Source of the DNA: Sipunculus nudus
Taxonomy: Eukaryota > Annelida > Sipuncula > Golfingiida > Sipunculidae
NCBI GenBank assembly: GCA_026874595.1
Contig: CM049317.1
Coordinates: 38,712,401-38,776,400, forward strand
Direction of reading: 5' to 3'
DNA: 64,000 nt
Part shown: positions 2,240 to 59,389 of the stretch, piece after piece
How positions within the stretch are numbered: the stretch's first letter is position 1
How the letters are laid out: every line of letters begins with the position of its first letter
Translations under genes and position numbers: made by a program
Notes under the pieces: generated by a model
What the model saw: the letters and a program-made list of their open reading frames with translations, nothing else
Told to the model about the DNA's origin: nothing
The model's database searches: none

Positions 2240-2849
2240 ATATGTGATTACAGATAATGATTTTACAATGCAGAAAGTATGGTTTGTCTCAGCATAAATT
2301 TATACCTTTTGTCAAGCTGGATTCCTTACTAGTGTCTATTCAATTTCTATGAATAAAATACAGATATATGTCATTTCTTGAAAGAGCAAAATTACAAAAA
2401 TATATCAGATATAATATTTTAACAAGATGCTTATTTTTAAGTATAAACTTAAAATGAGACAAAACTGTCTGCATGCTGAAACAGAAATATCAACAATATG
2501 TCCTTGTAAACAAGTTCCATAAATGATGCAATGTTAACTAAATCACCATCTTGAACATAGGCAATGTACTGAAAAACATAAAACCAATATTTATAGAATC
2601 CAACCCGGTGATTATGATATATGGCAGGTCTGGAGAGTAATTACAGATTTAAGTTAAACCTTAGGTTTCAGCTGTGCTATTTCAAGAAACAAGATCACAC
2701 TGAGAATAGTCAGTCCACATGTAGCTTTTAAGTTCTTAATAAAGATTAAATGTCTCGCTTTGCAAAATTATGAGTGTATATGGGACGGACAGATGATGGA
2801 CAGTCACTTAGCTGAGGACAAAAATACATATTGTGCAGGGAATACTCAC
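2240..2849. other. Intron 9 start, no assigned gene
   Basis: AT-rich DNA immediately downstream of the LIG4 exon 9 donor. The missing LIG4 exon 10 was looked for here and not seen. A short minus-strand open stretch after a TTTTTCAG acceptor-like site at 2569 does not resemble the expected OB-fold sequence. Confidence 0.5.
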
Positions 2850-3132
2850 CCTGCAAAATGAATGAAAGACTGTCGGGTGCTCCTCATCTTCCGGTGGGAC
2901 AGCAACACCACATAGGAAATGTGACATGACCCCTGCCCTGTGACCTTTACCAAAGTACCCTCCGATGACCAGGACGTCCAGCTGGTCCATCAGTCCATCT
3001 ACATATTCTGGTTTGATTTTGTACCAGCCACCTTTACGGACGTTAGGTTTGTACACAGACTCTGGTTCCTTGACCATGATTCCTTCCTCACGGGAATCTA
3101 TGGCATCATTTAAGGCTTCAATGCACTCCTCT
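2850..3132 (-). CDS. LIG4: LIG4 exon 9, motifs IV and V (residues 406-500)
   Basis: Encodes [66 protein letters not shown] and ends [15 protein letters not shown] is motif IV and WYKIKPEY is motif V, both lysine-bearing and both intact. The tail enters the OB-fold domain. The acceptor is GTTTGTAG|A and the donor AGG|GTGAGT (phase 0). The next exon should begin in phase 0 with a GSG-like segment. None was found down to base 1. Confidence 0.97.
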
Positions 3133-6100
3133 CTACAAACAAACACTGACATTACCACACACACAGAAATGTGTCATTTTTAACATTAATTATCAATTTC
3201 CTTCAACATAATGAGAAACTGTTTATGACATGACAGAGCTTCAAGTTTAGTGCTATGCAAAGGTTCACTGATACTTTAAAAATACTAGAGACTACCATAA
3301 AATCTCCACTTAAAACCCCGGTTTAATCAAGAAATTCAAAATCAGGAATCAGGTTGATTTCCTGAAAGCATTGTGCGGTTTATACTAGAAGGGTTTCCTG
3401 AATATCTTCCTGACAGACATCATTTTTGGGCCGGCGAGTGGGCTATAATATTGCAACTTTCGAAGGCCGTTCTTAGCAGCAGTCTCGCATGCATGGGAGC
3501 CGTGTGTAAATGTATTATTAACGATTATTTGTTATTTACAAATTAAATATTGCTGATTAGTTTTGGTGTGATATATAACTTGTTATAAAATCTTGGTATA
3601 TGTCACCAAATAATACGTTTACAACAACTCTGCTGTAACACATAGCGGCCCACTTCGTTGGGCATGGTCAAGCAAAATTGAAACAAGTGACCCATGGGTC
3701 ATGACGCTCAGCTGACTGGGAAGAGATTCGCAAAAGGAAATTTTATCATCAGAATGGTAGTATATACCCATTCAACTGAAGCATCAAACAGATTAACCAA
3801 CAGGCCAAGATTTAGTCTGTATTTATATATCTAAAAAATAGAGAAAAATGTGTAAACTTTTAAAACTAGAATACGGGTAACCGACAAGTGACTACATGTA
3901 TCTGCCAAAATCGGATAGTGAGGCATGGATTGATTGGCAAGGGGAAATAGAGTGAGGTATGTTGCATATTAGCATGGATGTCTGCAGCCTAAATGTGTAT
4001 GTAGGTTGTGCCACCTACCACAAATCCAGAAAGCTGTCCAAGTTGTATACACCTGCAAAATTTTAGGCAGATAAGTCAAACCACTACATGTATATGAGCG
4101 ATTTTTGCCCATGGCAGACAAACAGACAAACACTGTGCAAAAATCTTTGCAGGTAACCCCTCCAGTTTTGTGTATGATAAAGACCTATGTGAGATCTAAA
4201 CACATGCACAATTTTGGCCCAATCGGTCAAATGGTTCCTGAGATATGAGCTTGGATGTGTCCAGCGTTAACTAGAATGTAGGTGGCGCCACCTGTCATAA
4301 AATCAAGAAAGCTGTCCACGATGTATAAACCTGCAAAATTTTAGGCAGTTATGTCGAACCACTACAGAGAAATGAGTAATTTTAGGCCACGGCAGACTAA
4401 CAGACAGACGCTGTGCAAACATTGTTACAGGTGGCGCCACCATTTTTTGTGTATGTTACAGAGCTATCAAAGGGCTACATTTGTATAAATTTTATTTCCT
4501 GATCGGTCAAACGGTTCCCGAGATATAAGCTTGGATGTCATCAGCGTGAACGTAGGTGGCGCCACCTGTCATAAAATCAAGAAAGCTATCCTGGATGTAT
4601 ACACATGAGGAATTTCAGGTGAATTAGTCAATTCACTGCAGAGATATGAGTGATTTTAACCCAAGGCAGATGAACAGATGGACACTGTGCAAACATGGTT
4701 ACAGGTGGCGCCACCATTTTTTGTGTATGTTATAAAGCAATCCAAGGGCTACATTTGTATCAATTTTATTTCCTGATCGGTCAAACGGTTCCCGAGATAT
4801 GAGGGTTTATGAGTGGAAACAGACCCACAAATGGACAATGGATAGAGAGGAAAGGTCAGAGGTCAATGCAAATTGGTTAGGCACCAGTTCACATGTGACC
4901 CGATAATAGGTGTAAGTTTGGGAAAAATCGGTCCATTAGTCTCCAAGGAGCTCTCTGGAAACGAACGCCACCGCGGCGGAGGAACTCGGTCAAAAACATA
5001 GTATCCGCAAAACTTCGTTTTGGTGGATACAAAAATACAGGCGGCTCCACCAGTCTGCAGAAACTAATAAAAACACTTAATGGTCAATATCCATGCAAAA
5101 AATCATGGTGATCTCTGCATTAGTTGTTCAGATACTTCAGTTTTTGTATCAAATTGTCCATTATTCTGAGGGATAATTTCGGAGTCCTATAGCTTGAAGG
5201 ATATGGGTAACAGACACCTAATTTCAAGTTTCCACAGGCACCTTTCATGGGCCTCCTTGCATGACAAGAATGAAGATTCTAGGTCCAGTTGTTGCAATTT
5301 ATACCCTGTTGACAGATACCACAGATAACCACATCTTTAAAGGTCTCAAAAAAGAGAAAAAATTCGTAAAAATTTGAAAAAAAATAGAGGTGGCACACCC
5401 AGTCTGCAGAAACTGATGGAACAGCTCATGATCAATATGTATGCCGAAAATCATGACCATCAGTGTTGTAGTTATTGAAATACTGCAGTTTTTGTATCAA
5501 ATTTTCCATTATTCTGGGGGGGGGGGTATATTTTGGACCATACAGCTTAAAGAATATGGGTAACAGAGACCTAATTTCAAGTTTCCATGGAGACTTTTCA
5601 TGGGTCTCCCTGTGTGTCAAGAATGGAGATTCTTGGTCCAGTTTTTAGGATTTGTGCCCTGTTAACAGATGTTCATATCTTTAAAGGTCTCAAAAATACA
5701 GAAAAATTTCGTAAAAAAAAACGAACAAATACAGGTGGTGCCACCAGTCTGCAGAAACTTATGAAACACTCCATGATCAATATCCATGCAAACAAATATG
5801 GTTATCTCTGCATTAGTTGTTCAGTTACTTTAGCTTTTGTATCAAATTTTCCATTATTCTGAGCTGTACTTTGGAGTGCCATAGCTCAAAGGATATGGGT
5901 AACAGAGACCAAATTTCAGGTTTCCATGGAGACTTATCATGGGTCTCCCTGTGTGTCAAGAACGAAGATTCTAGGTCCAGTCGTTACGATTTGTACCCTG
6001 TTGACAGATAACTACATCCTTAAAGGTCTCAAAAATGGAGAAAACAATTCGTGAACATGAAAAATACAGGTGGCGCCACCAGTCTGCACAAACTGATGAA

Positions 6101-9100
6101 ACATCTCATGATCAATATGTATGTCGAAAATCATGACCATCAGTGATGTAGTTAATGAGATATTGAAGTTTTTGTATGAAATTTTTGACTATTCTGGGGG
6201 GTAATTTTGGGCCCCATAGCTCGAAGGATATGGGTAACAGAGACCTAATTTCTGGTTTCCATGGAGACTTTTCATAGGTCTCTCAGTGTGTCAAAAATGA
6301 AGATTCTAGGTCCAGTCGTTACGATTTGTGCCACGCTAACAGATGACAGCATCCTCAAAGGTCTCAAAAATAGAGTAAAAAATCGTAAAAAATCAAACAG
6401 TACAGGTGGCGCCACCAGTCTGCAGGAACTGATCAAAACTCTCATGATCAATATGTATGCCAAAAATGAAGACCATCAGTGATGTAGTTATTGAGATATT
6501 GAAGTTTTTGTATGAAATTTTTTACTATTCTGGGGGGTACTTTGGGGCCCCATAGCTCGAAGGATATGGGTAACAGAGACCTAATTTCAGGTTTCCATGG
6601 AGACTTATCATGGGTCTCCCTGTGTGTCAAGAACAAAGATTCTAGGTCCAGTCGTTACGATTTGTACCCTGTTGACAGATAACTACATCCTTAAAGGTCT
6701 CAAAAATGGAGAAAACAATTCGTGAACATTGAAAAATACAGGTGGCGCCACCAGTCTGCACAAACTGATGAAACATCTCATGATCAATATGTATGTCGAA
6801 AATCATGACCATCAGTGATGTAGTTAATGAGATATTGAAGTTTTTGTATGAAATTTTTGACTATTCTGGGGGGTAATTTTGGGCCCCATAGCTCGAAGGA
6901 TATGGGTAACAGAGACCTAATTTCTGGTTTCCATGGAGACTTTTCATAGGTCTCTCAGTGTGTCGAAAATGAAGATTCTAGGTCCAGTCGTTACGATTTG
7001 TGCCACGCTAACAGATGACAGCATCCTCAAAGGTCTCAAAAATAGAGGAAAAAATCGTAAAAAATCATACAGTACAGGTGGCGCCACCAGTCTGCAGGAA
7101 CTGATCGAACATCTCATGATCAATATGTATGCCAAAAATGAAGACCATCAGTGATGTAGTTATTGAAATATTGAAGTTTTTGTATGAAATTTTTTACTAT
7201 TCTGGGGGATACTTTGGGGCCCCATAGCTCAAAGGATATGGGTAACAGAGACCTAATCTCTGGTTTCCAAGGAGATTTTTCATGGACCTCTCAGTGTGTC
7301 AAGAATTAAGATTCTAAGTCCAGTCTTTATGATTTGTGCCTTGTTAACAGATGTTCACAATTTTAGAGGTCTCAAAAATAGAGAAAAAAATTCGTAAAAA
7401 ATCAAAAAATACAGGTGGCGCCACCAGTCTGCAGGAAGTGATGTAACATCTCATGATCAATATGTATGCCAAAAATCATGACCATCAGTCAAGTAGTTAA
7501 TGAGATATTGAAGTTTTTGTATGAAATTTTTTACTATTCTGGGGGGTAATTTTAGGCCCCATAGCTCGAAGGATATGGGTAACAGAGACCTAATTTCTGG
7601 TTTCCATGGAGACTTTTCATAGGTCTCTCAGTGTGTCAAAAATGAAGATTCTAGGTCCAGTCTTTACGATTTGTGCCACGCTAACAGATGACAGCATCCT
7701 CAAAGGTCTCAAAAATAGAGTAAAAAATCGTAAAAAATCAAACAGTACAGGTGGCGCCACCAGTCTGCAGGAACTGATCGAACATCTCATGATCAATATG
7801 TATGCCAAAAATGAAGACCATCAGTGATGTAGTTATTGAGATATTGAAGTTTTTGTATGAAATTTTTTACTATTCTGGGGGGTACTTTGGGGCCCCATAG
7901 CTCGAAGGATATGGGTAACAGAGACCCAAGGAGATTTTTTATGGACCTCTCAGAATCCCAAGTTACAAGGTTCTAGGTCCAGCGGTTACGATTTGTGCCT
8001 GGTTAACGGACGGACAGACGGACAGACGGACAGGACAGACGGACAGACGGACGACGGACAAAGAGTGATCACTATAGCTCAGATGACTTTCAGTCAGCTG
8101 AGCTAATAAAAGCCTACTATAAACCCATTTGCGGCATTATTTAGCAATGATTATTTGTTTAAAACATAAAATGAATAAAAAGCTGACATGATAAAGTGTC
8201 ACACAATGGCAGACGATCATTTTAAAATCAAGTTTGAGTGCCACCATGAGCTGAAACGCCCCGGTATTCTGCTACAAATATTTTGAACGGCTGTACGCGA
8301 TGGGTGGTAAATAGAACAGCCACCTAATTTGTACCAGTGTGCCTTGCGTGAACACTGCCTTGACAAAATGGCTCCCGACACGGAAACTTTTTTCAGGAAA
8401 AAAACTTGCTTACCCCAACTGGCCACTTTAATTTTACCTTAAATTCACTCATTTTCAAGCGTCATGTTTCCTTTATGTGCGTATCTCGACAAGGTAACTT
8501 CAGTTACTTTGACATTTAGTTAAGTTGACCAGCGATGTGTTTACACCAGCAAATTGTGACATGGAGCGATGTCAATGTATGATGTGATGATGATAATACC
8601 GAAGTAACCGGTACGAAAATGATTTGAATCTTCTGAGTAATTCCAGAAAATGGAATTTTCATCAAAAATTAAGATTTCAAAATATTACTTTTAGAATTAA
8701 AATATACAGTGATTTGAAATGGATCAGCAGAATATTTTTTCCAAAATATAATGACAAATCAGTAGCAAACAAGAATATGGCACAGCATATAAAATCTGTA
8801 TAAACAGGCAGAGGTTCACCTGCCCTTACGTCTTCCCTAACTTCATGCTTGAGTGACCCTGCAAAAAAGTGTTATGATGTGTTTAAATAAAATGCCCAGG
8901 GAATTTTAAAGTGGACAGGAATGGCCGAGTCACAACCTTCATGTGTTCATTTCTAGATGATAGCTTGATTGTGTCTTTTGTCAAATCATTCCGTAGCAAA
9001 AGTAGGTGCGGTTTTAAAGGGGGATTCTTAGTATTTGAGCCCCTCGCGGTGTCTCACCTGGAATTTCCGCAAAGTCTGGGTGCCGTTTTAATCAGAAGTG

Positions 9101-12100
9101 CAGTTTTAAGTGGAGATTTTATGGTACTATAGATTTATTGCAATTAAATCAAAATAATAAAAAGCAAAAAATCTGGATTTATGCGGTGCCACAAATCATC
9201 ATCACTGCTGCTATATGACTTGAAATACCACCAATCTCAGATTATTTTATTTAAATTTTTAATCTTATATTTAAATAAAACACTACAGTCAAAATTTGCC
9301 CCTGTGAACTACCGCTGTGGGTGTATATACTTGGTTTTTGCTTCTTTGGTCTGGGACAGCATGATTCTGCCTTCCTCTGGTGTGAACACCTCACTGAGTA
9401 GTTTCTTGCGTTCCCTCAAGGGACTGTTGCTATGGACTTTGTCATTGAGCAGCAGAATGTCAAACACACACAGACATGGCTGATACTCCTTCGTATCCTG
9501 GGCCTTGATGTCCAGGTTCTCTCCCTTGGAACCTGTCAGAGAAAAAAGATATATAATGATATACACATCCAAATACCTGAGTCTGGTATACACACACAAA
9601 GACCTGAGTCTGGTATACACATCCAAATACCTGATCTGGCATACACACAAATACCTGAGTTTAATTTATGCAACAGACCTGGGTTCAAATGGTACTGTGT
9701 TTGGTTGTGTGCAAATGCAGATATTTCAAATAAATGAAATGCAAATTAAAATGCAAATGTGATTTAAGATGATCAAATGCAAATTTCTATGAAAACTATC
9801 AAATGCAAATGCACTTATCAAATCTATTTGCCAACTCTACTTGGCGATATAAATCACAAAGAGATACCTTACTTTCATTCATAGGTTAGAAAATGATATA
9901 TATTCACTTATGCCTAACCAAACAATAACAGAGAAGCTTTTAAGTCTATCAAGTCTATCAAGTGTTTTCAAAAGATGAAAATTTTTGAACTGCATCTGCA
10001 TTTGAAAAACAAATTGTCATACAAATGCAAAATTTTTGTAACTTTAAACCAGTTAAGTATAATTCCAGTTGATAGATGGCAGTACAAGTTCCTCCACTAG
10101 ATGGTGGACTCACTTGTACAGTTCCTGACAGATGGCACTGTGATAGCAACTTCATAAAATAAAGTCATATCTCCCAGAATTTATGGGAAAATACAGAAAA
10201 TAACACCCCCTATCCTCAAACCCCTACAGAGAATGACACCCCTTACCTTCCACCCCCTACAGAGAATGACACCCCTTACCCTCCACCCCCTACAGAGAAT
10301 GACACCCCTTACCTTCCATCCCCTACAGAGAATGACACCCCTTACCTTCAACCCCTACAGAGAATGACACCCCTTACCCTCCACCCCCTACAGAGAATGA
10401 CAACACTTACCCTAGGACACAGATACATCAACACTTACAGACCAAATGCAGGAGGAACTGTGTGACTGAGGTGTAGCCACAGAGGAACTGTGTGACTGAG
10501 GTGTAGCCACAGAGGAACTGTGTGACTGAGGTGTAGCCACAGAGGAACTGTGTGACTGAGGTGTCGCCACAGAGGAACTGTGTGACTGAGGTGTCGCCAC
10601 AGAGGAACTGTGTGACTGAGGTGTAGCCACAGAGGAACTGTGTGACTGAGGTGTAGCCACAGAGGAACTATGTGACTGAGGTGTAGCCACATAGAGGATC
10701 TGTGTGACTGAGGTGTAGCCACAGAGGAACTGTGTGACTGAGGTGTAGCCACAGAGGAACTGTGTGACTGAGGTGTAGCCACAGAGGAACTGTGTGACTG
10801 AGGTGTAGCCACAGAGGAACTGTGTGACTGAGATGTAGCCACAGAGGAACTGTGTGACTGAGATGTAGCCACAGAGGAACTGTGTGACTAAGGTGTAGCC
10901 ACAGACAAACTGTGTGACTAAAGTGTAGCCACACAGGAACTGCGTGACTAAGGTGTAGCCACAGAGGAACTGTTTGACTAAGGTGTAGCCACAGGAGAAC
11001 TATGTGACTGAGGTGTAGCAACAGAGGAACAACATGACTGAGGTGTCGCCACAGAGGAACTATGTGACTGAGGTGTAGCCACAGAGGAACAGCGTGTCTA
11101 AGGTGTAGCCACAGAGGAACAGTGACTTAGTGTAGCCACAGAGGAACTGTGTGACTAAGGTGTAGCCACAGAGGAACTGTGTGACTAAAGTGTAGCCACA
11201 CAGAAACTGCGTGACTAAGGTGTAGCCACAGAGGAACTATGTGACTGAGGTGTAGCCACAGAGGAACTGTGTAACTAAGCTGTAGCCACAGAGGAACTGT
11301 GTGATTAAAGTGTAGCCACAGAGGAACTGTGTGACTAAGGTGTAGCCACAGAGGAACTGTGTGACTAAAGTGTAGCCACACAGAAACTGCGTGACTAAGG
11401 TGTAGCCACAGAGGAACTGTGTGACTAAGGTGTAGCCACAGGGGAACTATGTGACTGAAGTGTAGCCACACAGAAACTGCGTGACTAAGGTGTACCCACA
11501 GAGGAACAACATGACTGAGGTGAAGTCACAAAGAAACTGTGTGACTGAGGTGTAGCCACAGAGGAACTGTGTGACTAAAGTGTAGCCACAGGGGAACTGT
11601 TTGACTAAGGTGTAGCCACAGGAGAACTATGTGACTGAGGTGTAGCAACAGAGGAACAACATGACTGAGGTGTCGCCACAGAGGAACTATGTGACTGAGG
11701 TGTAGCCACAGAGGAACAGCGTGTCTAAGGTGTAGCCACAGAGGAACAGTGACTTAGTGTAGCCACAGAGGAACTGTGTGACTAAGGTGTAGCCACAGAG
11801 GAACTGTGTGACTAAAGTGTAGCCACACAGAAACTGCGTGACTAAGGTGTAGCCACAGAGGAACTATGTGACTGAGGTGTAGCCACAGAGGAACTGTGTA
11901 ACTAAGCTGTAGCCACAGAGGAACTGTGTGATTAAAGTGTAGCCACAGAGGAACTGTGTGACTAAGGTGTAGCCACAGAGGAACTGTGTGACTAAAGTGT
12001 AGCCACACAGAAACTGCGTGACTAAGGTGTAGCCACAGAGGAACTGTGTGACTAAGGTGTAGCCACAGGGGAACTATGTGACTGAAGTGTAGCCACACAG

Positions 12101-15100
12101 AAACTGCGTGACTAAGGTGTACCCACAGAGGAACAACATGACTGAGGTGAAGTCACAAAGAAACTGTGTGACTGAGGTGTAGCCACAGAGGAACTGTGTG
12201 ACTAAAGTGAAGCCACAGGGGAACTATGTGACTGAGGTGTAGCCACAGAGGAACAGCGTGTCTAAGGTGTAGCCACAGAGGAACAGTGACTTAGTGTAGC
12301 CACAGAGGAACTGTGTAACTAAGGTGTAGCCACAGAGGAACTGTGTGATTAAAGTGAAGTCACACAGAAACTGCGTGACTAAGTTGTAGCCACAAAGGAA
12401 CTGTGTGACTAAAGTGTAGCCACAGGGGAACTATGTGACTGAGGTGTAGCCGCACAGGAACTGTGTGACTGAGGTGTAGCCACAGAAGAACAGCATATCT
12501 AAGGTGTAGCCACAGAGGAACTGCCTAAGGTTTAGCCACAGAGGAACTGTGTGACTAAGGTGTAGCCACAGAGGAACTGTGTGACTAAGGTGTAGCCACA
12601 CAGAAACTGCGTGACTAAGGTGTAGCCACTGAGGAACAACATGACTGAGGTGTAGCCACAAAGAAACTGGGTGACTAAGGTGTAGCCACAGAGGAACAGT
12701 GTGTCTATGGCGTAGCCACAGAGGAACAGAGTGACTTAGGTGTAGCCACAGAGGAACTGCATGACTGAGATGTAGCCACAGAGGAACTGTGTGGCTAAGG
12801 TGTAGCCACAGAGGAACTGTGTGACTAAGCTGTAGCCACACAACAACTGCTTGACTAAGGTGTAGTCACACAAAAACTGCGTGACTAAGATACAGCCACA
12901 GACGAACTGTGTGACTAAGGTGTAGTCACAGAGGAACTGTGTGACGGAGGTGTAGCCACAGAGGAACTGTGTGACTAAGGTGTAGCCACAGAGGAACTGT
13001 GTGACTGAGATGTAGCCACAGAGGGACAGCATGTCTAAGGTGTAGCCAAAGAGAACTGTGTGACTAAGGTGTAGCCATAGAGGAACTGTGTGACTGAGGT
13101 GTAGCCACAGAGGAACTGTGTGACTAAGGTGTAGCCACAGGGGAACTATGTGACTGAGGTGTGGTCACACAGAAACTGCATGACAAAGATGCAGCCACAG
13201 ACGAACTGTGTGACTAAGGTGTAGTCATAGAGGAACTATGTGACAGGTGTAGCCACAGAGGAACTGTGTGACTGAGGTGTCGCCACAGAGGAATTGTGTG
13301 ACGGAGGTGTAGCCACAGAGGAACTGCACAACTAAGGTGTAGCCACAGAGGAACTGTGTGACTGAGGTGTAGCCACAGGAGAACTGTTTGACTGAGGTGT
13401 AGCCAATGAGGAACTGCAAGACTGAGATGTAGCATCAGAGGAACTTTGTGACAGAGGTGTATCCACAGAGGAACTGCATGATAAAAGTCTTGTGGCATCA
13501 CTGTTGATTACAATATAAATTGGACCTGCACAAATCATGGAATGCACAAAGATCTGGTATGATAAAAAAATATCTCCCTTATCTGGTTATGACTGCCAAA
13601 GAAAGATCTCACATAAAGCCAACTGATGCAAGTACATGTAGCTGATGAATATGCCAGAGGGGGCTCGCTCAAATATTTTAACCTGGCTAAAGCTGGTGGG
13701 GAGCTCTGATTGGTCGGTCCTTGATGACAAGCTATGCTCTTTAATAATGATCTGCCAGTGGCCATTTGAGATGACCTAAGGTTTGCTAATCATAAGAAAC
13801 CCAACACTTGAACATGCAAAAGTGGCCCATACAAAATGGCACGGACATACAAGGCTTAAATGAGGAAATGACTAAAACACTATATTTCAGCATGCGAACC
13901 ATGCATGTAACTGTTAATATGAAATTGGTCTCCTTATATCATTAAGCGTTAAACTTGCTATCTTCGGGGAACTCACTATATCTACCTATTTTTAAATCAA
14001 GTATACTTAAATATGCATTCTGATAATTCAATTTTGGGTTTCCAAGATTTCTCTGGACACTCCCTGCATCTTAATTTAGAAGTTCCAAGGTCTGAGAGAT
14101 ATGATATGTGCCCGGTTATAGCCAGACAGATGGACAGGCAGACAAGGGAAAAAAGCGCATCCCAATAGTTCAAATGACTAACAGTCACCTGAGATGAAAA
14201 AGATTAAAAACTTTCATCATTAACATGACCCTACTTCCATGTGACAATTTTAAACTAATAATGTCTAATTTATTTCATTCTAGGCACGTTAATATTACTG
14301 ATGGGCAAACAGATGGTCATGTCAGTTTTTGTAAAACTTTCACTTTACATTTACATTCATAACAGACTTCAGTTACATATCAGTGACATGACTCACTAAT
14401 GACACGGGTTGTAGGGTTGTATCCCACCATCTCACCGTCCAAGATACAGCTGATCACATCCTCCTTGAAGCAGTTATGTATATATGGCACCAGGTTACCA
14501 TCAAATGGGTTAGACCCAAAGGAAGAAGTGTAGTCATTACCACTGAAACAACACAAGTTCTGCAGCAAAATCCAGATGCTTTGTAGTTTTATCCGTTATG
14601 CCAAGAAATGAAAAGTTTTATAAGAGCAGATCAAATATAATTCCATACTTTTGAAATTCCTGCTCAATTTGCACACTCAAAAGAGGTGCCTTGAGTTGCC
14701 TTGAAAAATACATTTTAGTATTTCCAAAACAAATGGATGATGGATGACAAGTACCGTTTAAATGATTGAAGATGAAAGTACTCATGTGAAAAAAAAACAT
14801 TTTTCACTCTTCTGGATTTTATATTTTATGTATAAATGCCAGAACATGAAATTTTCTGCTAAATTTAAGCGAACAAAAATACACATCTGAGAAATTAATC
14901 TTTTGCAATATTTAAAAAAAAGAAATACAAAGAATTATTCAAAGGAATAAACTGGTTTAATTGTCCTGAACACCATAAACAATGTTATTCAAGGGATCAT
15001 GGGTCACGGTGCTCAGCTGAATTTTGAAAAATGTTAGCAAAAGCAAAATTTCTATTTCTATTGTTTTATTGTTTTTATATATATGTTTTGAAAAGCTAAA

Positions 15101-36100: not shown

Positions 36101-39100
36101 TCTGGGTAACAGAGACCTAATTTCTAGTTTCCATGGAGACTTTTCATAGGTCTTTCAATATGTCAAGAATGAATATTCTAGGTCCAGTCTTTACAATTTG
36201 TGCCCTGTTAACAGATGTTCAAATTTTTAAAGGTCCCAAAAATAGAGAAAACAATTTGTAAAGAATCGAAAAATACAGGTGGCGCCAGCAGTCTGCAGAA
36301 ACTTATGAAACATCTCATGATCAATAGGTATGCCAAAAATCATGACCTGCAGTGATGTACCGTATTTACTCGTGTATAGGACGACAAATTGGTTCCCAAA
36401 TTTTGGAGGGCTTAGTGGGGGGGTCGTCCTATTATCGGGTACAAATTTTTCAGTCACCTGAAGCTCACCGAAAATGATAAACAAGATACCGGTAAGTATA
36501 TCAACCAGTGCTGCGTCGGTAGAACACAAGCCTTAAAACGTCCGTACAGAGATTCTAGTAATGACATGTATTTATTTTCTTTTTTTATGTGTCTGATATA
36601 ATGTTTATAAAGCATAACATATGTTTTATTACAAGAAGAACGTATGATGTTTATCCTTCTCACGTTACTAAATTTGTCATATCAGCGGCGTAGTATGCAT
36701 GACTTGTGTTCACAAGCGGGCCGACATGTAACCTCCCCGCAAATACCCCCGGCCCAACCATAAACTATAAACATTCCCCCAAAAGGCACGCTGATATGCA
36801 TATCGTCGGCAGTGTAATAATTACACATTTTAAATCGTGTATGTCGATCGTATTTTTTACATATTTTTATCTTGTCATGGTTTAATATTCCGTATTACTG
36901 AAAAAGAATATACAAAATTGCGGTCGTCCTTCGCTTTCGCCAAGCGTCCAGACGGGTAACCTAAACGACACCGGTCACGCCCAGTTCAACGATAAGCTAA
37001 TAAATTCCATTTTCATTCTCCACATGAAATCAGTTATATAAAAATCGTTATCAAAGCAAATTGGTTCCAATATAAATAATATATTTAACAAATCTCGCTG
37101 ACAAACATACAACATTAAGAAAGTATGATTAATTATCACGGAATATAATTAATGTAGCGCACATGTTTGGTTAAACAAACGAGTAAACAACTCATCAGTG
37201 ACAGCTTTGATCACCTTGTGATGACAGTAACCAAAAGGACAAGGGCACGGATTACCTGATCAGTGGAGGTTTCAGGTGTGAGAATCGCCTTTGATATGGT
37301 GGTTTCTCTCGGCTTGCCTAAATCAAAGAGACCTTATTCAGTTGACTGTGAAAGCTGCCGGTAAGTATCGCCCACTGATGCGTTGGTAACAAACAAGCGT
37401 GTTTATTTAAGAAATGTATTTATTTTTTTCTTTATTTTGTCTGATATTATGTTTATGAAGCACATCACACGTTTTATTTTAAGAGAAACGTGTGATGTTT
37501 GTCCTTCTCACTTTACAAAATGTGTCATACCAGCGGCGTAGCATGCATGACTTGTGTTCACAAGCAGGCCGACATGTAACCTCCCCGCAAATACCCCTGG
37601 CCCAACAATAAACTATAAATATTCCCCAAAAAGGCACGCTGATATGCAAATCGTCCACAGTGTAATAATTACAAATTTTAAATCGTGTATGTCGATCGTA
37701 TTTTTCACATATTTTTATCTTGTCATGGTTTAATATTCCGTATTACTTAAAAAGAATATACAATATTGCGGTCGTCCTTCGCTTTCGCCAGGCGTCCTGA
37801 CGGGTAACCTAAACGACACCGGTCACGCCCAGCTCAACGATGAGCTAATAAATTCCATTTTCATTCTCCACATGATACCAGTTGTATAAAAATTATTATC
37901 AAAGCAAATTGGTTCCAGTATAAATAATATATTTAACAAATCTCGCTGACAAACATACAACATTAAGAAAGTATGATTAATTATCACAGAATATAATTAA
38001 TGTAGCGCACATGTTTGGTTAAACGAGTAAACAACTCATCAGTGACAGCTTTGATCAACTTGTGATGACGGTCACGCTTCTGAAGAAACTATGTCTGCTC
38101 GTGTGGGACCAGTTCCGGGGACACCTGACCCCCGCCATCAAGGCCGCTGTCAAGCAATGCCGGACTCACCAGGCCGTTATACTCAAATGCGCATATAACA
38201 TACCACTTAGACAGTGTTTGTCCACTTTAAATGTTGATTAGAAGAATATGTATTATCCTAATAAACGGTGATACACGGGGAACGATGTCTGCTCTGGGTT
38301 TCCCCCCTGCCACGGCTGGCCGGCAGCCGCCTGTGTAACCAGTGGTAACGGGCCGTGTTGGATCAGCGAGCAAAGGTCACGCAGTTCATTGTTTCAGATT
38401 CTGACACAGTTTCAAGCGCAAGGGTTGCAAAGTTTCAAAAGTGAGTCTTGTTTACATACTAAAACATAATATTTAGCTGAATTTCTTGGTCATTCGAATA
38501 AAGTACTATATCTCCCTTGGATTACTTAAAGTTTCCTTGTCATAAACGCACTATTGATTTTACACGATTTTTTTTCCGACAAGGGTTTGAAGTTCTCCAG
38601 TTTACTCTGAAGCTTTTATGCGGCGGTTTCCAGGGTCCTGGATACCGCCGCATTTAATGCAGCTAATGATCAGTCAGACTTTGGAGGCTTCTGAACTCAG
38701 TGTTTGTCAGAAGTTTGGCTGAAGTTTAACAGTGTGTTAGCCATTTATGATGAAAGAACATTTGCATGTAATTTTGTTTTCAAGTGTGACGTGTTTATAG
38801 CCATTTTCCGGTAGTTAAGGGCTTTGATGATGATTATTTCAGTTAATCGCTTTGTAAGTATGTTAATATCATCACAGGTGTTGAAGTCATCATTTATGAT
38901 TTCAAGTGGAATTGTCGATTCCTGCAGCCCCAAAGCCTGCAAACCATAGTGCTTAATTCAGTACTTAATGTCATCTATATGCAATCTCTTACCTACATCA
39001 ATTTGAAATTTTGTACCAACACATATTTTTTGTATGTTAAGTTTGACTGAAAACCAAAAAAAAAAAAGCATTCCTTCACGCAAGTTATAATTTATTGTTT

Positions 39101-42100
39101 TTCATATTTAGTTAACAGCTTGCAATATTTATAGTACTTTGACAATATTTAATTGTTTATAAATAGTATTAGAAATACTTTCATAGCATCACAGCTTTTG
39201 AATTTTTTATCATTTTGTTTTGTCAGTTTAGGCAACCACAGAAATGCATCAGTGCTTAATTCAGTGCCTAATTTATTTTTATCTGGTGTTTCTTATGACA
39301 TCATTTTGAATTGTATATACACATTCTTTTATATATTTAATAAAATCCTGTTTTGGTCTGTTCCATCATACATTTCCTTTTAACTTTCCTATTTTCACTT
39401 TTTTACTAATAAAAAGAAATATACCACTGAACATTTGAAGAATAAAATGTTATAATAGCCCACTTTAATCATCGGTTTTCATGATCATGACACATTGTGA
39501 TTCAGTAGCTGACAGATCCATTGTGCTAAAAAATAATTTGTACCCAAATTTGAGGCCTAAAATTGGGGGGTCGTCTTATACACGGGGTCGTCCTATACAC
39601 GAGTAATTACGGTAGTTAATGAGATATTGAAGTTTTTGTATGAAATTTTTTACTATTCTAGGGGGTACTTTGGGGCCCCAAAGCTCGAAGGATATGGGTA
39701 ACAGAGACCTAATTTCTGGTTTCCATGGAGACTTTTCATAGGTCTCTCAGTGTGTCAAGAATGAAGATACTAGGTCCAGTCTTTAAAATTTGTGCCCTGT
39801 TAACAGATGTTCACATTTTAAAAGGTCTCAAAAATAGAGAAAAAAATTCGTTAAAAATAAAAAAATACAGGTGGCGCCACCAGTCTGCAGGAACTGATGG
39901 AACATCTCATGATCAATATGTATTCCAAAAATCATGACCATCAGTGATGTAGTTAATGATATATTGAAGTTTTTGTATGAAATTTTGGACTATTCTGGGG
40001 GGTACTTTGGGGCCCCATAGCTCGAAGAATATTGGTAACAGAGACCTAATTTCTGGTTTCCAAGGAGATTTTTTATGGACCTCTCAGAATGTCAAGTTAC
40101 AAGATTCTAGGTCCAGCGGTTACGATTTGTGCCCGGTTAACGGACAAACAGACTGACAGATGGACGGACAGACAGACGACGGACAAAGAGTGATCTCTAT
40201 AGCTCAGATGACTTACAGTCAGCTGAGCTAAGAATTATTGTTTTTTGTTATGTTTTTGGCCAAAACAACTACTATAGGAGGGGGTTGGACAGTTAGATCC
40301 AGGTGAAGCCACCCTAGAGCTGGCTGGCTGCAGAGAATGCCTCGCTTCAAGCATGCATGATTGGCCAGAAAGTTCAACAAGAGTGCATATAGAGGGGTTT
40401 CAGTAGAGCCTAGGTGTGACATGGCCTCAAAAAAACTTAAATAAAAGCTACAATTTTTGGTAAATTCCTTACAAATATCAGAATTTAGAAGCTGAAATCC
40501 TTACTTGTGCATGATGTAAAAATTAAATCAACAGTGCTTACAGGGGGAAATGTGCCATGGCCAAATCCGGGCAAAATTTAAGGGAATGATTTTATATTTT
40601 TGCAAACAACTTATAAATTTGTTAATTTCAGATCTAATTTTCAGCATTCATTTGAATCTTGACTAAATGAAGTTATATCCCTGAAAATAAGTCTCTAGCT
40701 TCAGCAAATATTATGTTAAGTGAGTAAATATATTTCTTGATTTTTACAAGGTGCATTATGTTCGGGCCCATAACTTCAACAAATTACACAATATGGACAT
40801 AATTTTTGGTATGTACATAGGAAATGTATGGAAGAATAGGCATACTAAATATGATCAAAAACACAGTGGTTTTGATATTAGGCTGTCTCGAAGTGTAACA
40901 ATGGGTTTTTTATGAAAAAACAGAGGTTTTTCCTGATTTTTTTACAAAGTCAATTATGTTCAGGCCCACAACTTAAAGAAATTACACTTAACAGACTTAA
41001 TTGCTAGAATGTTTATAGGAAATTTATATAAGAATTCATCTTGTAAATATTCAAACTCCTGTAACTCCCCTAAAATTCATAAAACCCAAATCATTTGAAT
41101 AAACTTGAGAGAGCTCATCTCTGGGATAATTGCTGTGAAAAATTAAGCAATTGGGCTGGATGAAATAGATTTTAAAAGTCTTTTTTTTTTTTAGCTTTCC
41201 CCCCGTAAAATGTAAGTTATTGCAGGTGGGGCCACAAAAAGCTCAATCCCACAACATTTGATATGTGACAGAGTTTTGCATAAAATTTGTGGATGCTAGT
41301 TCCCGCCATTCCTGAAAAATTATGAGTTAATGTACTGATGACCTATGACCCAAGGAAAAATTTGAAATCCTGTGGAAAATCAAAATTTCATTCAATATAG
41401 TATTCACTTAATTTCCCTGGTTCATAGAAATCTTTGCATATGATCTGAAGGTTGAAGTGTTCTTATTTAGTGACTTATCTGAAGGAAAGTGGGAAAACAC
41501 ATTTTGAATCAACAGAGATGGCACAGCCTTCATGTAACAGTCACTTGTCAGTCATGTCATGAGCAGGAATGTCACTCAGAAAACATAAGGAATTTACACA
41601 AGAAAAACAGTAAGCACTCATCTACGATGCCATACATCTGTAGCCTTACTTTCTGTTTATAATGACTGCATATTTCAACAAAACATACCGCCTTAGCATT
41701 TTTTGGAGATTTGTAGTTCAGTAACTTCTGGGCTGCAGTACTCTCCTTGTTCAGTCCTAGGATCTTGATGTACAACCTAGCCAGCTTATTCTAAAATATA
41801 TATATATATATATATATTAAAAATATAATAATCACAAGATATGTGTGGCCTCGATTATTTTCTCAGTGGGATACAAATCCACAAGTTATAATAAAACATA
41901 CTTGAGACCCAAGCATTAAGGTTTTTCACATTATCTATAGCACTTATTTTTTTTTAATTTTAAATAAAAAAGGAATGAAGCTGATATTGCTATTATTGAA
42001 ACAACAGTTTCTGATTAACTACAGAACAGGGCCTTTAGCAATGCAATTTTATTATCTCTGCAAAACTTGTATCTAATGGTATGTTAAACTGTAAATATTT

Positions 42101-45100
42101 TTATCACTAAGATCATAAGTAAAACTAAAAGGCACAGACTAACATGAGACCTGTCAGTCAGTGGAGCAGTAATTCAATATGAAGCGAGTGCTTTATATAC
42201 TTGAGGACAAAGGAAAGTAAAAGTGTAAACAGAATTTGCATTGATCACAGACTGCCTTTACAGGCTCACCTGTATTACAAGTAAAATATGGTTTACCATT
42301 GTTGGTGACACTAAAGATATGAATGATCAGGTTTTCTTTATATTTTGTGTGATGACAATATACATACCCTTAATGAAAGTTATGCATGGAACATGCATGA
42401 AAATGCATGGATGCATGGATGATGCATAGAACATGTCTGGAACACACTGGGTAAATATTTTTTTTTTGGGTGCATTGACATGCATGGATATTGCCTGGAC
42501 TTGTATGGATATGCATGAGCTTGCCTGGGAAACAATGAAATAGATTTTCAGACAACATTTCAGGTGTCTGAATATACATGGATTTAAAATGGAATATGTA
42601 TGGGTAAAATTGACTCTACTGATTAATCCTGGTTAGCCTGAGTTGAGCTAGCATGGATCATGCATGAAGCACTTTAGATGATATTTTCTGACCAAGTCAC
42701 TGTCTGGATTTCCCCGGGACAAAAGTCACTTGTAAAATTAGGAATTTCTGACTTAGCATGAATACGGGGAACTAAAGAAGAGCTTTCCTGATAGTCTTTG
42801 CCTGGACTTGCCTGAAGCAGAGGTCACGTGTAAAACATGTTGGTGACTTGCTAAACCAGTTTCAAAACCATAGCCATCACATGACACCCGTGTCTATACA
42901 CACAACCTGATGAGGGTCTTCATGCAGTTATCTTGCTGTTACAGTCATCATGAACAGGAGAACTTCAAGAAGTGATCTGAACACTAATCGTCTAAAATCT
43001 CATAGAAGAGGAGTCATCATCCTTTGCATCTCTGTTGGTGAGTATTCAAAAGATAAATTTAACTGTACGTATTGATATTTATCCCCAACATGGAGAATGA
43101 ACATGAGAAATCCATTTGTAAGCATTACCTGATCTGCTCATGAATATAATTCATGTTGCTAACTCAGAATTGCTGATACAGTTTTACGTTCAAAATAAGC
43201 CATTTCAGTGTCTGATATTTTATCATGCATGAATTGCTTCTTTATACTGTATTAGGCCAAATCAGAGGAAAATTAGATGCTTCACAAAACTTTTAATTTT
43301 AAAATGTTGGTTGACACTGTCATACTGAAGGTGACCAGTACTGTCAGTGGTATTACAAGGTCAAGGACACCCAAGGGGGATAGGTCAGTTGGTATATGCC
43401 ACTTACCAATCAGTGTTTCTAAACCAGAAGTGCAGTTAGTACAGTTACTCAAGTCACTGACATCTCAACTGAATGTTAAATTCTGAGTTTTAAGCAGGAG
43501 AGGACCTGACTACAGTCAAGAGAGACCTCTCAGTTCTGGCTTAATGCATTAAATCATGAACAAGGCCTACAGGCCTAATGCAAACCTGTGCAATGGGATA
43601 TACATCAGGTACAATGCTTCCATGTAGGACCGTTACTTTTCAAGTACGTGTGACATGTATATGTACAATTCAATCACTATACATTTTGAACCAAAGTGCA
43701 TGTACCAATTACACAAACGTCACTGCTGAAATACGTCATGGATGCACATAACACAGAATAGATTGCAAGTGGCACCACCAGTCTTGTGATAGAGAAACCC
43801 ATCAAGGCCTACAGGTCTAATGCGAACCTGTGCAATAAGTTTACACCAGGTATTATGCTTCAATGCTGGACCATTACTTTTCAAGAACATGTGTAATATG
43901 TATATGAACAATGCAAGTACTTAACACTTAGAACAAGAAAAAATTAAACAAACATCACTGCTGAAATTCTGGAATGGGTGCACACAACACAAAAACTAGA
44001 ATACGAGTAGTCAACAAGCAACCACATGTATCCGCCAAAATCAGAGTGGGACCGGTGAAGTGAGGCATGGATTGAGAGGCAAGGGGAAATAGAGTGAGGT
44101 GTGTTGCATAATAGCCTGGATGTCTGCAGCTGAAATGTGTATGTAGGTTGCACCACCTACCACAAAATACAGAAAGCTGTCTAAGTTGTATACATATGCA
44201 AAATTTAGGCAGATAATTCAAACCACTACTTGTATATGAGTGATTTTATCCCACAGCAGATGAACAGATGGAGGCTGTGCAAAAATGGGTGCAGGTGGCG
44301 CCCCCAGTTTTGCGTGTGATAAAGAGCTATGGGAGATCTATACACATGCAAAATTTTTGCCCAACTGGTCAAAAGGTTCCAGAGATATGAGCTTGGATGT
44401 CTGCAGCTTAGACGTGAATGTAGGTGGCGCCACCTGTCATAAAATCAAGAAAGCTGTCCAGAATGTATACACATGCAAAATTTCAGGTGGATAAGTCCAA
44501 CCAATTCTGAGATACGAGTGTTTTTATCCCAAGGCAGATAAATAGACTGACGCTGTGCAAAAATGGTGGCAGGTGGCACCACCAATTTTGTTTATGATTA
44601 AGAGATATGTGAGACCTATACACAAGCAAAATTTCAGGGGGATATGTCAAACGAGTCCTGAGATATAAGCCTGAATGTCTCCAGCGTATACATAAATGTA
44701 GGTGGCGCCACCTGCCACAAAATCCTGAGAGCTATTCAAGATGTATATACCTGCAAAATTATAGGCAGACATGTCAAACCACTGCCGAGATATAAGTGTT
44801 TTTATCCCATGTGGCGCCACCAGTTTTGCGTATAATAAAGAGCTATGTGAGGATATAAACACACAAAATTTTTGCCCAATCCATCAAACAGTTTCCGAAG
44901 ATATGAGCTTGGATGTCTGCAGCATAAATGTGAATGTAGCTGGCGCCACCTGTCATAAAATCAAGAAAGTTATCCAAGATGTATAAACCTGCAAAATTTT
45001 AGGCAGATATGTCAAACCACTGCCGAGATATTAGTGATTTTATCCCATGGCAAACAAAGAGACAGACGCTGTGCAAAAATTGTTGCAGGTGGCGCCACCA

Positions 45101-48100
45101 TTTTTGCAATTGATGAAATGCTATGTGAGATCTATACACATGCAAAATTTTAGGAGGATATTTCAAACCAATCCTGAGATATAAGCCTGAATGTCTGCAG
45201 CGTATACATAAATGTAGGTGGTGCCACCTGCCACAAAATCCACCAATACCTCAATTTCAGATATGACCTATGTGACAAACATTGACATAAAATTTGGTGA
45301 TGATAGCTCCAGCCGTTTCTGAGATTTAAATTTTAATATGCTTTTTTGGACAGATGACAAAGTTTAACCTCCTGTAACTCGGCCAAAAATCTCTGAACTG
45401 AAACCATTCGAACAAACATGAGAGAGATTGTTCCAGGGATCATTTCTGTGAAATATAGGACAATTTGGCTGGACAGTTTCGGAGAAGAAGATTTTTAAAA
45501 CTTTTTTAGCTTTTTCCCTATAAAATCTAAGAAAAATGCAGTAAGAAAAAAAATAATCAAAATCTGATATAGTTTTTTGGATGACTGATTATTTGCAAAA
45601 ACTTTGGTGATGCTAGCTCCTGCATTTTTTGAGATAGCTATACAGAGATAACGTACAGACGACGCACGACACACGACATACGACGGACGACACCGCACCA
45701 TCGCATAAGCTCACAGGTTCGCTAAAAAACCAGGCAGATACTTCAAACCACTGTCAGGCTATGTGCACAGATGCATGAAACAACAGAAAACCAGAAGTTG
45801 ACAAGAGACAACGTGTCTCCGCTGAAGTCAGAGTGGTACAGGTGGAGTGACGGATGGATTGAGTGGTATGTCATACCACTGCTGAATATAGTCAACTAAA
45901 ACTCTGAGAAAAGGACATTAATTAATTCAATGAAAACACCTGCTGCCACTTGTCTGGTCTACTAGAAAACTCTCCAAGATGGACTGACATGCCACATTTG
46001 AGACCAATACCTTGACCAACTCCTGAGATATGAGCAATTTTCACCCAAAGCACATGTATGGATGGATGCCTTGTGAAAAAAATTGCAGATGAGTCAGGGA
46101 GAAATATACCAGCGACACGGAAGAGTGTGACTCTCTAGTCAGTGTTTTTTTTTTTCACCTTTCCGATAATTGCAGAACTTCCAACAGACTTTATATATGG
46201 ATTGTCTTCAGTTTGCCTTTGGGATTATTACCAGAACTCCACTTTTGGATTACAACAGATTGTTTTCGAGTTTAAACCTGACTATAATTCTCTTGGAAGT
46301 TTTATTTGAACTATTTACATGGATTATTTATGTTAAAGGACTCTTGTTGAGCTGTGACAGTGGTGTTATCCAGAAATCAAAGCCTAGGATCCGGACACTC
46401 TGGTACTGTACATTTTTGTTATTGATATACTGTGTAATTGTATTGATTTAGTGTATTGTAATGTTAGGATTGTTCTAAGAATAAATTATAATTATTTGTT
46501 AACAAAAAACCACTGACTTCTTTATTCATTCCCCTAGACATTTCACGCTGCCTTGTGTTGTGGAATCTTTTTTTTTATCTCTGTAACAAAATTTGTGCTC
46601 ATCATGATTACATGATCTGTTGTTATAAGGTTCCGTAACAATACAGACACAGTCTTGGCCTGTTGGTAAATCTGTTTACACATACTGAAAGACTTTGGCT
46701 TAAATGTTTTTTTTTTTCAAGCTGACATATTACACTTTTTATCAATATGTTTAGAATAATAAAAGATGCAGTTTTTTCATTGTTAAAGGTCCAATAATTC
46801 AGACATTTGCATAAAACTAAGTGATACTAGCTCCTATGGTTTCTGGGATTCTTATGTTAGTTTGGCCAAATGACTAATTTCAAATTCCAGTTACTCGGCC
46901 AAAATTAGCCAAACTTGAACCAGACGAACAAACTTGAGAGCACTTATCCCTGGGATCATTTTTGTGAAATACTGAACAATTGGGCTCAATGATTTCGGAG
47001 AAGATGATTTTCAAAGTTTTACAAGCTTTATCCATGTAAAATGTAAACTGATGCAGGTGACAACAAAAAAAGCTGTATCCCACAACATTTAAATTGATAT
47101 GTGACTGATTTCTGTGTAAATTTTGGGGATGCTAGCTCCTGCTATTCCTGAAAAATTATGGGTTAATGTACTGATAACTGATGACCCCTCTAAAAAAGGT
47201 TGATGCAGGTGGCGCTACCAATACCTAAATTTCAGATATGACTTATGTGACCAACACTGGCATAAAATTTGGCGATGATAGATCCAGCCATTTCTCAGCT
47301 TGCAATTTTAGTATGCTCTTTTTAACAGATGACGAAGTTCAACTTCCTGTAACTTGGCCAAAAATCACTGAAATAGGGCCATTCAAACAAATGTGAGAGG
47401 AATTATTCTAGGAATCGTTTCTGTGAAATATAGGAAAATTTGGCTGAACAGTTTCAAAGAAGATTTTCAAAGGTTTTCAAGCATTTTTCCCGTAAAATGT
47501 AAATTGATGCAGGTGACACCAAAAAAAGGCGGTATTCCACAACATTTGATATGTGACTGATTTTTGTGTAAAATTTCACGATGCTAGCTACTGCTGTTCC
47601 TGAGAAATTATGGGTTAATGCACTGATAACTGATGACCCTTGTACAAAAAAGGGTGGCACCATCAATACCTAAATTTCAGATATGACTCATGTGACCGAC
47701 ACTGGCATAAAATTTGGTGATGAAAGCTCCAGCCGTTTCTGAAATTGAAATTTTAGTATGCTTTTTTGGACAGATGACTAGGTTGAACTTCCTGTAACTC
47801 AGCCAAAAATCACAGAACTTGAACCATTCAAACAAACATGAGAGAGATTGTTCTATGAATCTTTCTGTGAAATATTGGACAATTTGGCTGAACAGTTTCG
47901 GATAAGAAGATTTTCAAAGGTTTTTTAGCTTTTTCTCTATAAAATCAATGAAAAAGCAGTTAGCCGAAAATTAAGCAAAATCTGATAGTTTTTAAGATGA
48001 CTCATTTTTGTAGTATGAGTTAATAAACATGCGACGGACAACTTCCTACGGATGAGGGACAACACCACACCATGGCATAAGTTCACAAGTTCGCTAAAAA

Positions 48101-58215: not shown

Positions 58216-59335
58216 CAACCTATTTAAAGATACAGACACAATCTTGGCCTGTTGGTAAATCTGTTTACACATACTGAAAGACTTTGGCTAAAATGCTTTT
58301 TTTCAAGCTGACATATTCATAAACTTTTTATCAAAATATCTAGAATAATAAAAGATGCAGTCCTTTCGTTGTTAAAGGTCCAATAATTGTGCCAAAAATC
58401 ATTCAAGTAAATTTGAACAAAGGCCACCTAAGAATAGTTTTTGTGCAATGTTACAGAAGTTATAATTGAAACAATAATTTGGTAGAAGAACACGATTGCA
58501 GTCCTCAGTTTGAAATAGACATAATAATGGCCATAAGACCAACTTAAGCTTTTCACGACTCAACCAAAAATCAACAAACTCAATCTATTCTGATATAATT
58601 GAAAAAACCATGTCCTAGGATAATTCTTTTGAAAAATTGAACAATTCAACTTGACAGTTTCATCATAAACATTTTAAGCTGAAAGAGGCTAAAATTATGA
58701 GGTTTTTGCCCATAAAAACAGGTCAATGTAGGTGGCACCACGAAATCTGCAACTTCAAATATGAGTCTAGTGACCAACATTTGCACAATACTTGGTAATG
58801 CTAGCTTCTGTCATTTCTGAGATTACTATGTCAGTATGTTTACTTGGCCAAATAACTAGGTTAAAATTTGTGTAACTCTGCTAAAATTCATCAAATGCAA
58901 ACCATTTGAACAAACTTGAGAGGGCTTGCCTCATCATTTCTGTAAAATACTGAACAATTTGGCTGGACTGTTAACAAGAAGAAGACTTTTAAAGGTTTTT
59001 CAGCTTTTTCCCTATAAATCTAAGTAAATGCAGATAGCAAAAAATAAGCTGAATCCAACAGCATTTGATATGTGACAGATTATTGAATAAAATCTGGGGA
59101 TGGTAGCTCCTGCTATTCCTAAGAAATTATGGGTTAATGTTCAGATGTGCAATGACCCCGGTACAAAAAAGGTCAATGCAGGTGGCGCCACCAATACCTG
59201 AATTTCATATATGAGTCATATGAGTCACTGGCATAAAATTTGGTGATGATAGCTCCAGCCATTTCTGAGACTGTCATTTTAGTCAGCTTTTTTTTTTTTA
59301 AATGTGCAAGATCTATGGATAAGCACAATTTCAGG
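58216..59335 (+). repeat. Family D repeat upstream of LIG4
   Basis: Starts with ACACAATCTTGGCCTGTTGG, also found at 46648, and continues with Family D units (GGTGGCGCCACCAATACCTGA near 59180). Confidence 0.65.
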
Positions 59336-59389
59336 CCAATAGGGCAAATCACTCCTCAGAAAAGACCATTAATTTATTCTACATAAACA

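Follow-up and report, generated by a model that had tools for sequence, protein, structure and literature searches.

A 12-bp palindrome shared by the internal tandem repeats of probable HINEs in a Sipunculus nudus window, and an antisense bias of these elements in sampled genes

The window analysed here is a 64-kb stretch of the Sipunculus nudus genome (C12:38,712,401-38,776,400 of a 1.43-Gb assembly). Most of the window (2829-55476, minus strand) is spanned by the DNA ligase 4 (LIG4) gene, whose introns are loaded with elements carrying tandem arrays. As judged from the features of their ends and interiors, these arrays are the cores of HINEs, i.e. small non-autonomous Helentrons, which are of a known kind. 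The 12-base palindrome GGTGGCGCCACC recurs across several of the array families. We read it, with a probability of roughly 0.7, as the conserved core box of the monomers that make up the internal tandem arrays of these HINEs, which are very abundant in the genome. As the two LIG4 exons identified lie on the minus strand and 52 kb apart, the arrays between them are intronic and antisense. The plus strand refers throughout to the reading strand of the palindrome families, and the published orientation of Cg_HINE, the related element of Crassostrea gigas, appears to be the reverse. The exons and the best-defined element, which holds one B array and one A array (the BA element), are as follows.

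2829-3134, minus: DNA ligase 4 exon (residues 412-513 of solved chain 3w1b_A, E 1e-40)
55396-55476, minus: DNA ligase 4 exon (residues 61-87 of chain 4hto_A, E 4e-8)
3681-8106, plus: HINE-type BA element, B array and A array, with a sharp left edge at 3681 common to the copies L034, L020 and L021
3688-3718, plus: left end of the BA element, the 14-bp palindrome TGACCCATGGGTCA followed by the subterminal inverted repeat (subTIR) GCTCAGCTGACTG (sequence and motif scan)
3966-4803, plus: B array of 129/149-bp half-units, palindromes at 4004 (2 mismatches), 4281, 4430, 4555 and 4704
5031-8010, plus: A array (336 bp), palindromes at 5040 (2 mismatches), 5389 (3 mismatches), 5734 (1 mismatch), 6069, 6405, 6741, 7077, 7414 and 7750
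8006-8060, plus: ACGG/ACAG microsatellite near the right end of the BA element
8075-8106, plus: right end of the BA element, terminal hairpin and subTIR, last letters AGTCAGCTGAGCTAA (fold and motif scan)

The assignment to HINEs was made on the basis of subTIRs of the 11-15 bp typical of this class, a microsatellite, a hairpin at one end and a palindrome at the other, all of which are present. The subTIR GCTCAGCTGACTG stands at one end of the BA element and its exact reverse complement at the other, with the hairpin beside one of them and TGACCCATGGGTCA beside the other, and between them lie the microsatellite and the central tandem repeats. The hairpin at the element end folds as DNA with -11.8 kcal/mol (z -5.6) and lies approximately 310 bp from the last 12-bp palindrome. 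HINEs are expected to insert at TT without target-site duplication; the flanks of the few complete element edges here are mostly A/T-rich and varied. Copies of the BA element were found on C1 at 866 kb (L034, 95.9% identity), 558 kb (L020, 95.6%) and 566 kb (L021, 97.7%, matching only 3681-5169), and a 96% match occurs on C5 within the region of an MCM gene (L069). To the left of the element, the window, L034 and L020 copies have different flanks. L020 and L021 agree over the 18 bp of left flank that are visible, and for this reason these two may represent one local duplication and not two insertions, which counts against the main reading.

The 15-base right end of the element occurs in 39,632 copies genome-wide; among the right-end matches listed, 100 places were all on the plus strand, a figure not used to claim an absence of minus copies. 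Within the window there are seven right ends (up to two mismatches), all in one direction. Three minus-strand matches (2206, 8074, 40199) overlap arms of the hairpins at right ends; a further one at 54797 (1 mismatch) lies inside a repeat that was read as a similar hairpin.

Exact copies of GGTGGCGCCACC number 23 in the window, and allowing up to two mismatches gives 58 sites, where shuffled sequence gave 0.44 on average and 3 at most. Five of the 58 fall in an unrelated 30-bp minisatellite at 10.5-13.5 kb (10452-13476, about 101 copies), which carries GGTGTAGCCACA, superficially like the palindrome. Elsewhere the A unit (336 bp), the D unit (about 450 bp) and the B half-unit (mostly 129 and 149 bp) each hold about one palindrome, which makes two for a 278-bp B unit, and the units at 59.4-60.3 kb have it as well. 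The first-pass annotation of this DNA had proposed that one palindrome is common to several repeat families, and these copies and spacings bear it out. Across the 1.43 Gb the palindrome was counted 111,729 times exactly and 218,178 times when up to one mismatch was allowed; for the reversed pattern the counts were 14 and 575. Extended patterns specific to three families gave 15,352 (A), 21,321 (B) and 5,497 (D) copies, so that at least three families are represented. In a literature search outside subscription journals, the only paper with the GGTGGCGCCACC string was one on a chitinase, as judged by its title and abstract. The shared box is striking, and not categorically new. The further palindrome-bearing stretches of the window, together with one stretch of reversed repeats, are listed here.

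849-1534, plus: D unit, palindrome variant at 1048
18820-19160, plus: single diverged A unit, palindrome variant at 18999
22643-23024, plus: diverged B/F-like units, palindrome variants at 22643, 22755 and 22892
30843-31591, minus: stretch with repeats opposite to the other matched window and C1 repeats, holding all 20 inverted window-C1 (plus) matches
31725-36359, plus: second B/A composite, passing from B to A at 32546-32560 near a palindrome (the motif scan found no right end for it)
39612-40231, plus: short A array and HINE right end (40217-40231; motif scan)
43803-45241, plus: third element, B array with palindromes at 44146-45217, then D from 45240
45240-45728, plus: D segment, beginning inside its own palindrome
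46803-48100, plus: D units, palindrome variants at 47208 and 47653
58715-60216, plus: D unit(s) (58731, 59181), then E units (59398, 59546, 59710, 60036)

The repeat families had been described as unrelated apart from the palindrome. Consensus flanks were built for eight groups (5 to 73 copies each, many of them from loci chosen for an exact palindrome) and aligned outward from the palindrome against 60 dinucleotide shuffles; only copies called as plus were used, dropping 19 minus-called, 57 minisatellite and 55 unclassified rows. Downstream of the palindrome, B1, B2a, B2b, E2 and F show strong mutual similarity (z 7 to 31). E1 resembles B1, B2a, B2b and F (z 4.7 to 9.9), with 2 of 60 shuffles doing as well for E1 against E2. 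Family A resembles B2b (z 9.1) and B1 (0/60 shuffles as good) and, more weakly, E1, E2 and F (2/60 shuffles each). Upstream, B1, E2 and F are alike, as are B2b, F and E2, while E1 is unlike most groups; A and D resemble each other (z 4.3), and D resembles B2b (z 10.3), B2a (6.2), E2 (4.1) and B1 (3.6). Since B, E, F and A can be aligned downstream of the palindrome, they look like diverged descendants of one monomer, and the description as unrelated does not hold for B1, B2a, B2b, E1, E2, F and A, with D alignable only weakly. A common monomer is thus well supported by the flank alignments for B, E and F and supported on one side for A, and D appears weakly linked to it. It had been stated beforehand that a junction would be contradicted if all families descended from a single monomer in which the palindrome merely evolved slowest; this largely applies to A, B, E and F, and not clearly to D.

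Conservation of the palindrome within families was measured on copies found by their right flank only, from the window and from loci not chosen for the palindrome. In A (41 copies) the palindrome scored 0.931 against 0.842 for the unit, with 6 of 287 other 12-base windows as good or better (rank 7/288), and in B1 (16 copies) 0.958 against 0.862, with 0 of 102 other windows as good (rank 1/103). The box is slow in these two families despite containing a CpG. At 0.73, the second base of this central CpG is the least conserved position of the A box, and CpGs elsewhere in the A unit mostly score lower.

A number of results weigh against a single monomer with a constrained box. Downstream, A is unlike B2a and D, and D has no significant similarity to A, E1, E2 or F and is only weakly like B1 (z 3.9), B2a (z 2.4) and B2b (z 2.3); upstream, A is unlike the B, E and F groups (z -0.1 to 0.8). 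Given the lack of strong downstream similarity in D, and the match of A to the B groups on that side alone, another origin is possible for D and for part of A. Within families, the palindrome is hardly distinguished in B2 (11 copies; 0.886 against 0.862, 45 of 99 other windows as good, rank 46/100) or in D (5 copies; 0.817 against 0.810, 158 of 297 windows as good). These last figures favour the explanation that the box has no function, its apparent slowness coming from shared ancestry and its copy number from hitch-hiking with the amplification of the elements, and the central CpG being the least conserved part of the A box points the same way. However, the box ranks 7/288 in A and 1/103 in B1, and between some families it outlasts any recognisable similarity of the flanks, and we consider a box without function rather unlikely, if still a serious competitor.

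For the box as a conserved core of HINE-borne monomers, the following course of events may be envisaged. A Helentron Rep/helicase would have acted on the element ends and so dispersed the elements, the arrays would have grown and shrunk by slippage or unequal exchange, and the families would have diverged while the box changed least. The simplest reason for its having been kept would be a DNA-binding protein with the box as its target. A conserved binding site was the other reading offered by the first-pass annotation, and on the conservation values above a bound protein at the box is a possibility.

One candidate for such a protein is a host zinc-finger architectural protein such as CTCF, in which case the elements would be mobile insulator sites. 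The core of the CTCF motif, AGGTGGCGC, occurs on both strands in B1-type copies, the slowness of the box in A and B1 would suit binding of this type, and a CTCF-like zinc-finger open reading frame (ORF) is present at C11:67037578 (58% identity over residues 2-283 of a 283-residue query; next best 41%). That identity is modest, many other C2H2 genes exist in the genome, and the CCA part expected 5' of the core is absent from all eight family consensuses. As the box is without this 5' part, CTCF is only a lead, and an improbable one. In the same literature the AGGTGGCGC string occurs in 12 papers, none of which deals with CTCF binding as judged from titles and the starts of abstracts. Many of the C2H2 zinc-finger matches listed are located on C16, which suggests a C2H2 gene expansion there.

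The first-pass annotation had placed the switches between families at or near the palindrome and had suggested a recombination or rolling-circle breakpoint at which modules are swapped between unrelated families. Three switches do lie near a palindrome (5031/5040, 32546/32560 and 45240), and their positions could be refined. At the first, placed near 4984, the B array ends at 4803, and A begins only at 5031, after a spacer of approximately 230 bp and 9 bp ahead of its palindrome at 5040, so that the position given does not stand. At the second, 32559, A indeed begins a few bp upstream of its own palindrome (32560), but the B sequence breaks off short of the B palindrome. The third, 45228, was roughly right, except that D starts at 45240, inside its own would-be palindrome and 12 bp past the end of the B palindrome.

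Array boundaries in the window and in loci L001-L076 were then measured to the nearest palindrome centre. Boundaries from the E library (150 rows) were excluded, since E also matches B monomers. The starts of B arrays cluster at -44 bp and their ends at +92 bp, A starts lie at -14 and A ends at about +268, and D boundaries fall at -382, -204 and about +460, although some of those of D (about -382/-234/-204) look like alignment splits within one D copy. Within 20 bp of a palindrome centre there were 10/49 boundaries for A, 14/82 for B and 2/64 for D, against hand-calculated uniform expectations of about 6, 24 and 6. A alone is thus slightly above uniform and B and D are below, with the pooled count of 26/195 facing about 35 expected; these counts are not independent, as copies share junctions by descent. 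Most array boundaries fall at phases specific to their family, and many have been passed down together with the element.

A breakpoint at the palindrome might also be read from the start of A arrays about 8 bp before it in 9/23 cases, and from E-library alignments, of which 50/75 starts and 28/75 ends lie at most 20 bp from a palindrome. There is moreover a precedent in the phBglII400 satellite of the bivalve Ruditapes philippinarum, where 13/16 junctions were reported to be associated with a 12-bp palindrome (PMC5139131). However, several A starts are copies of one inherited junction, the E alignment ends are read as the points at which E stops resembling B monomers and not as array ends, and boundaries at fixed phases other than the palindrome were found in part, the modal B phases of -44 and +92 among them. 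The 12-mer itself hardly folds as single-stranded DNA (-1.3 kcal/mol, z -0.3), in contrast to the real hairpin at the element end. With family-specific phases and no pooled enrichment, a recombination or rolling-circle junction at the palindrome is quite unlikely. What seemed to be a recombination signal becomes transposon-borne satellite repeats sharing one conserved box in more than 100,000 copies.

The orientation of the elements along the chromosomes was a further feature of these arrays. For 123 exact copies with 60-bp flanks (38 sequences, the window and 37 clusters at C1:0.12-0.94 Mb), 122 were called as plus by script, and the lone exception (L004:760) reads as plus by eye and was taken as a scoring error. 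Genome-wide, the extended-pattern copies of A and B are balanced between strands. Arrays on C1, merged at 10 kb, showed fewer switches of orientation than expected for B (8 against 16.2, 33/20,000 shuffles), A (19 against 25.7, 767/20,000) and D (26 against 39.4, 22/20,000), and D arrays agreed with the nearest A/B array in 21/23 cases under 20 kb, 7/12 at 20-50 kb and 7/7 at 50-150 kb, with the B list of the D test thinned by hand to 48 of the 100 places listed. Matches between different plus regions were direct in 4,064 cases and inverted in 22, with 20 of the 22 in the single window stretch at 30843-31591. Six blocks were fetched as minus. Three of them (L045-L047) gave 630 inverted matches and 1 direct against the window and C1 clusters, L044 and L048 gave no matches to these, and L043 was reassigned as plus after its matches were seen. 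After masking, there were 324 direct and 2 inverted matches within the same domain, and 78 inverted and 1 direct between opposite domains. Using the microsatellite pattern as the orientation marker over 60 Mb of C1, no excess of runs was found (48 switches against 50.0 expected), so that either orientation is coherent only locally or the microsatellite marks it poorly. The direction of replication forks was considered as the cause of the runs and is less likely: skew in unmasked sequence did not flip consistently between plus and minus blocks, and the gene-strand test that follows explains the runs better.

Intron pieces of further genes were sampled blind to their content. Among ion channels (8 genes, 20 pieces) three genes were informative, two antisense, one of them on an 82-bp match, and one sense; the element in the channel gene at C1:71 Mb is antisense. 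Of eight MCM regions, two were informative and both were antisense. The CCT and myosin set (20 pieces in 20 genes) gave 12 informative genes, 11 antisense and 1 sense. Including LIG4, elements are thus antisense, in the palindrome reading, in 16/18 informative genes of the 37 sampled (one-sided binomial P = 6.6e-4), and in 13/14 (P = 9e-4) for MCM, CCT and myosin together. The call for one gene (C3b) comes from the 82-bp match only, and without it and LIG4, the discovery case, the count is 14/16. Two of the 18 genes carry elements in sense, which counts against the bias. Both sense pieces are 69-79% identical to the nearest sampled copy, and all pieces with a match of at least 90% are antisense; some antisense pieces are equally diverged (L077, 73-83%). 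In view of this tally, the orientation runs are most simply transcription units, for which the longest runs (0.9-1.2 Mb) would require very long genes or several genes on the same strand. We infer that insertion, or survival after insertion, depends on the direction of transcription.

Survival would be decisive if purifying selection removed sense copies through their effects on splicing or polyadenylation, with no oriented insertion at all. An antisense bias of intronic transposons is a known pattern, and over six element stretches there are 24 poly(A)-signal hexamers on the plus strand and 12 on the minus. However, the two BA elements carry few signals (poly(A) 2 against 2 and 0 against 1; acceptors 0 against 1 and 0 against 1), so that poly(A) and splice signals were rejected as the basis of such selection. 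The most similar pieces being all antisense, and the sense pieces diverged, is the reverse of what gradual purging would leave, although identity to the sampled copies is a poor clock. Selection against sense copies is nevertheless a strong contender, with a chance only a little short of even.

The other possibility, which we put forward tentatively and consider somewhat improbable, is that the insertion strand is set by transcription. A rolling-circle intermediate would join one strand of an open transcribed duplex, e.g. the displaced strand of an R-loop, so that tens of thousands of copies would record in which direction their host genes are transcribed in the germline, and the box would be a protein-binding core unrelated to joining. 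No such strand rule appeared among the matches listed in literature searches outside subscription journals on Helitron/Helentron insertion orientation, replication and intron strand bias, nor among those listed for CTCF with molluscs, Helitrons or palindromes. If the bias is set at insertion, the elements would serve as a natural archive of the direction of transcription and as a means of finding where the rolling-circle transposons of eukaryotes are joined to single strands. Of the results, this strand rule matters more than the shared box and most deserves further work.

A number of other features were observed. A 167-bp tandem array at 29489-30785 is without the palindrome and appears to resemble the bivalve BIV160/Cg170 repeats; this satellite superfamily has a monomer of approximately 160 bp with two conserved sequence motifs. 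A 57-bp minisatellite at 25225-26361 (20 copies, 97% matches) is apparently very young. At C1:600001-610000 (L039) the whole 10-kb block matches L020:2799-3201 repeatedly and forms a long tandem array. Fragments resembling the reverse transcriptase or zinc-knuckle ORF1 of long interspersed nuclear elements (LINEs) were recognised by eye at L041:5607-7505, L047:1618-2217 and L038:461-1492, all plus, and gave no Pfam match over the cut-off; the one in L047 is opposite in direction to the surrounding HINEs. Pfam analysis of 20 long ORFs identified one convincing domain, HTH_psq in L040, and two weak matches just over the cut-off in repetitive ORFs, ThrE_2 (L042) and ZPR1 (L044), with matches of the remaining ORFs below the cut-off or absent. 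Intron-less full-length chaperonin matches of identical score occur at nine places on eight contigs among C61-C99, with other bacterial-looking ORFs, and these contigs are probably symbiont or cobiont genomes in the assembly.

The elements of the window may be compared, by description and not by sequence, with several known systems. Cg_HINE of Crassostrea gigas, as far as the available text of PMC7492417 describes it, has subTIRs, an inverted repeat, a microsatellite and an end palindrome around satellite-like arrays, with one or two arrays per element in an orientation fixed relative to the flanks, all as found here. That text has no mention of a 12-bp palindrome common to monomer families, unlike the situation here, and it reports insertion in both orientations without relating this to gene strand, whereas an antisense bias is found here. 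The bivalve Pearl family (Gaffney, 2003, as cited in PMC7492417) has short internal repeat arrays as here, and DTC84 of the bivalve Donax trunculus (as cited in PMC5139131) has internal repeat arrays and a conserved palindrome near the repeat junction. The phBglII400 satellite (PMC5139131) carries a 12-bp palindrome in an internally repetitive monomer as here; its junctions are associated with that palindrome, whereas here no excess was found among the A, B and D boundaries. The DINE-1/HINE elements of Drosophila and mite, from another host group, are non-coding and, as described in PMC4067079, combine subTIRs, a stem-loop end, a microsatellite and central tandem repeats, as do the elements within LIG4.

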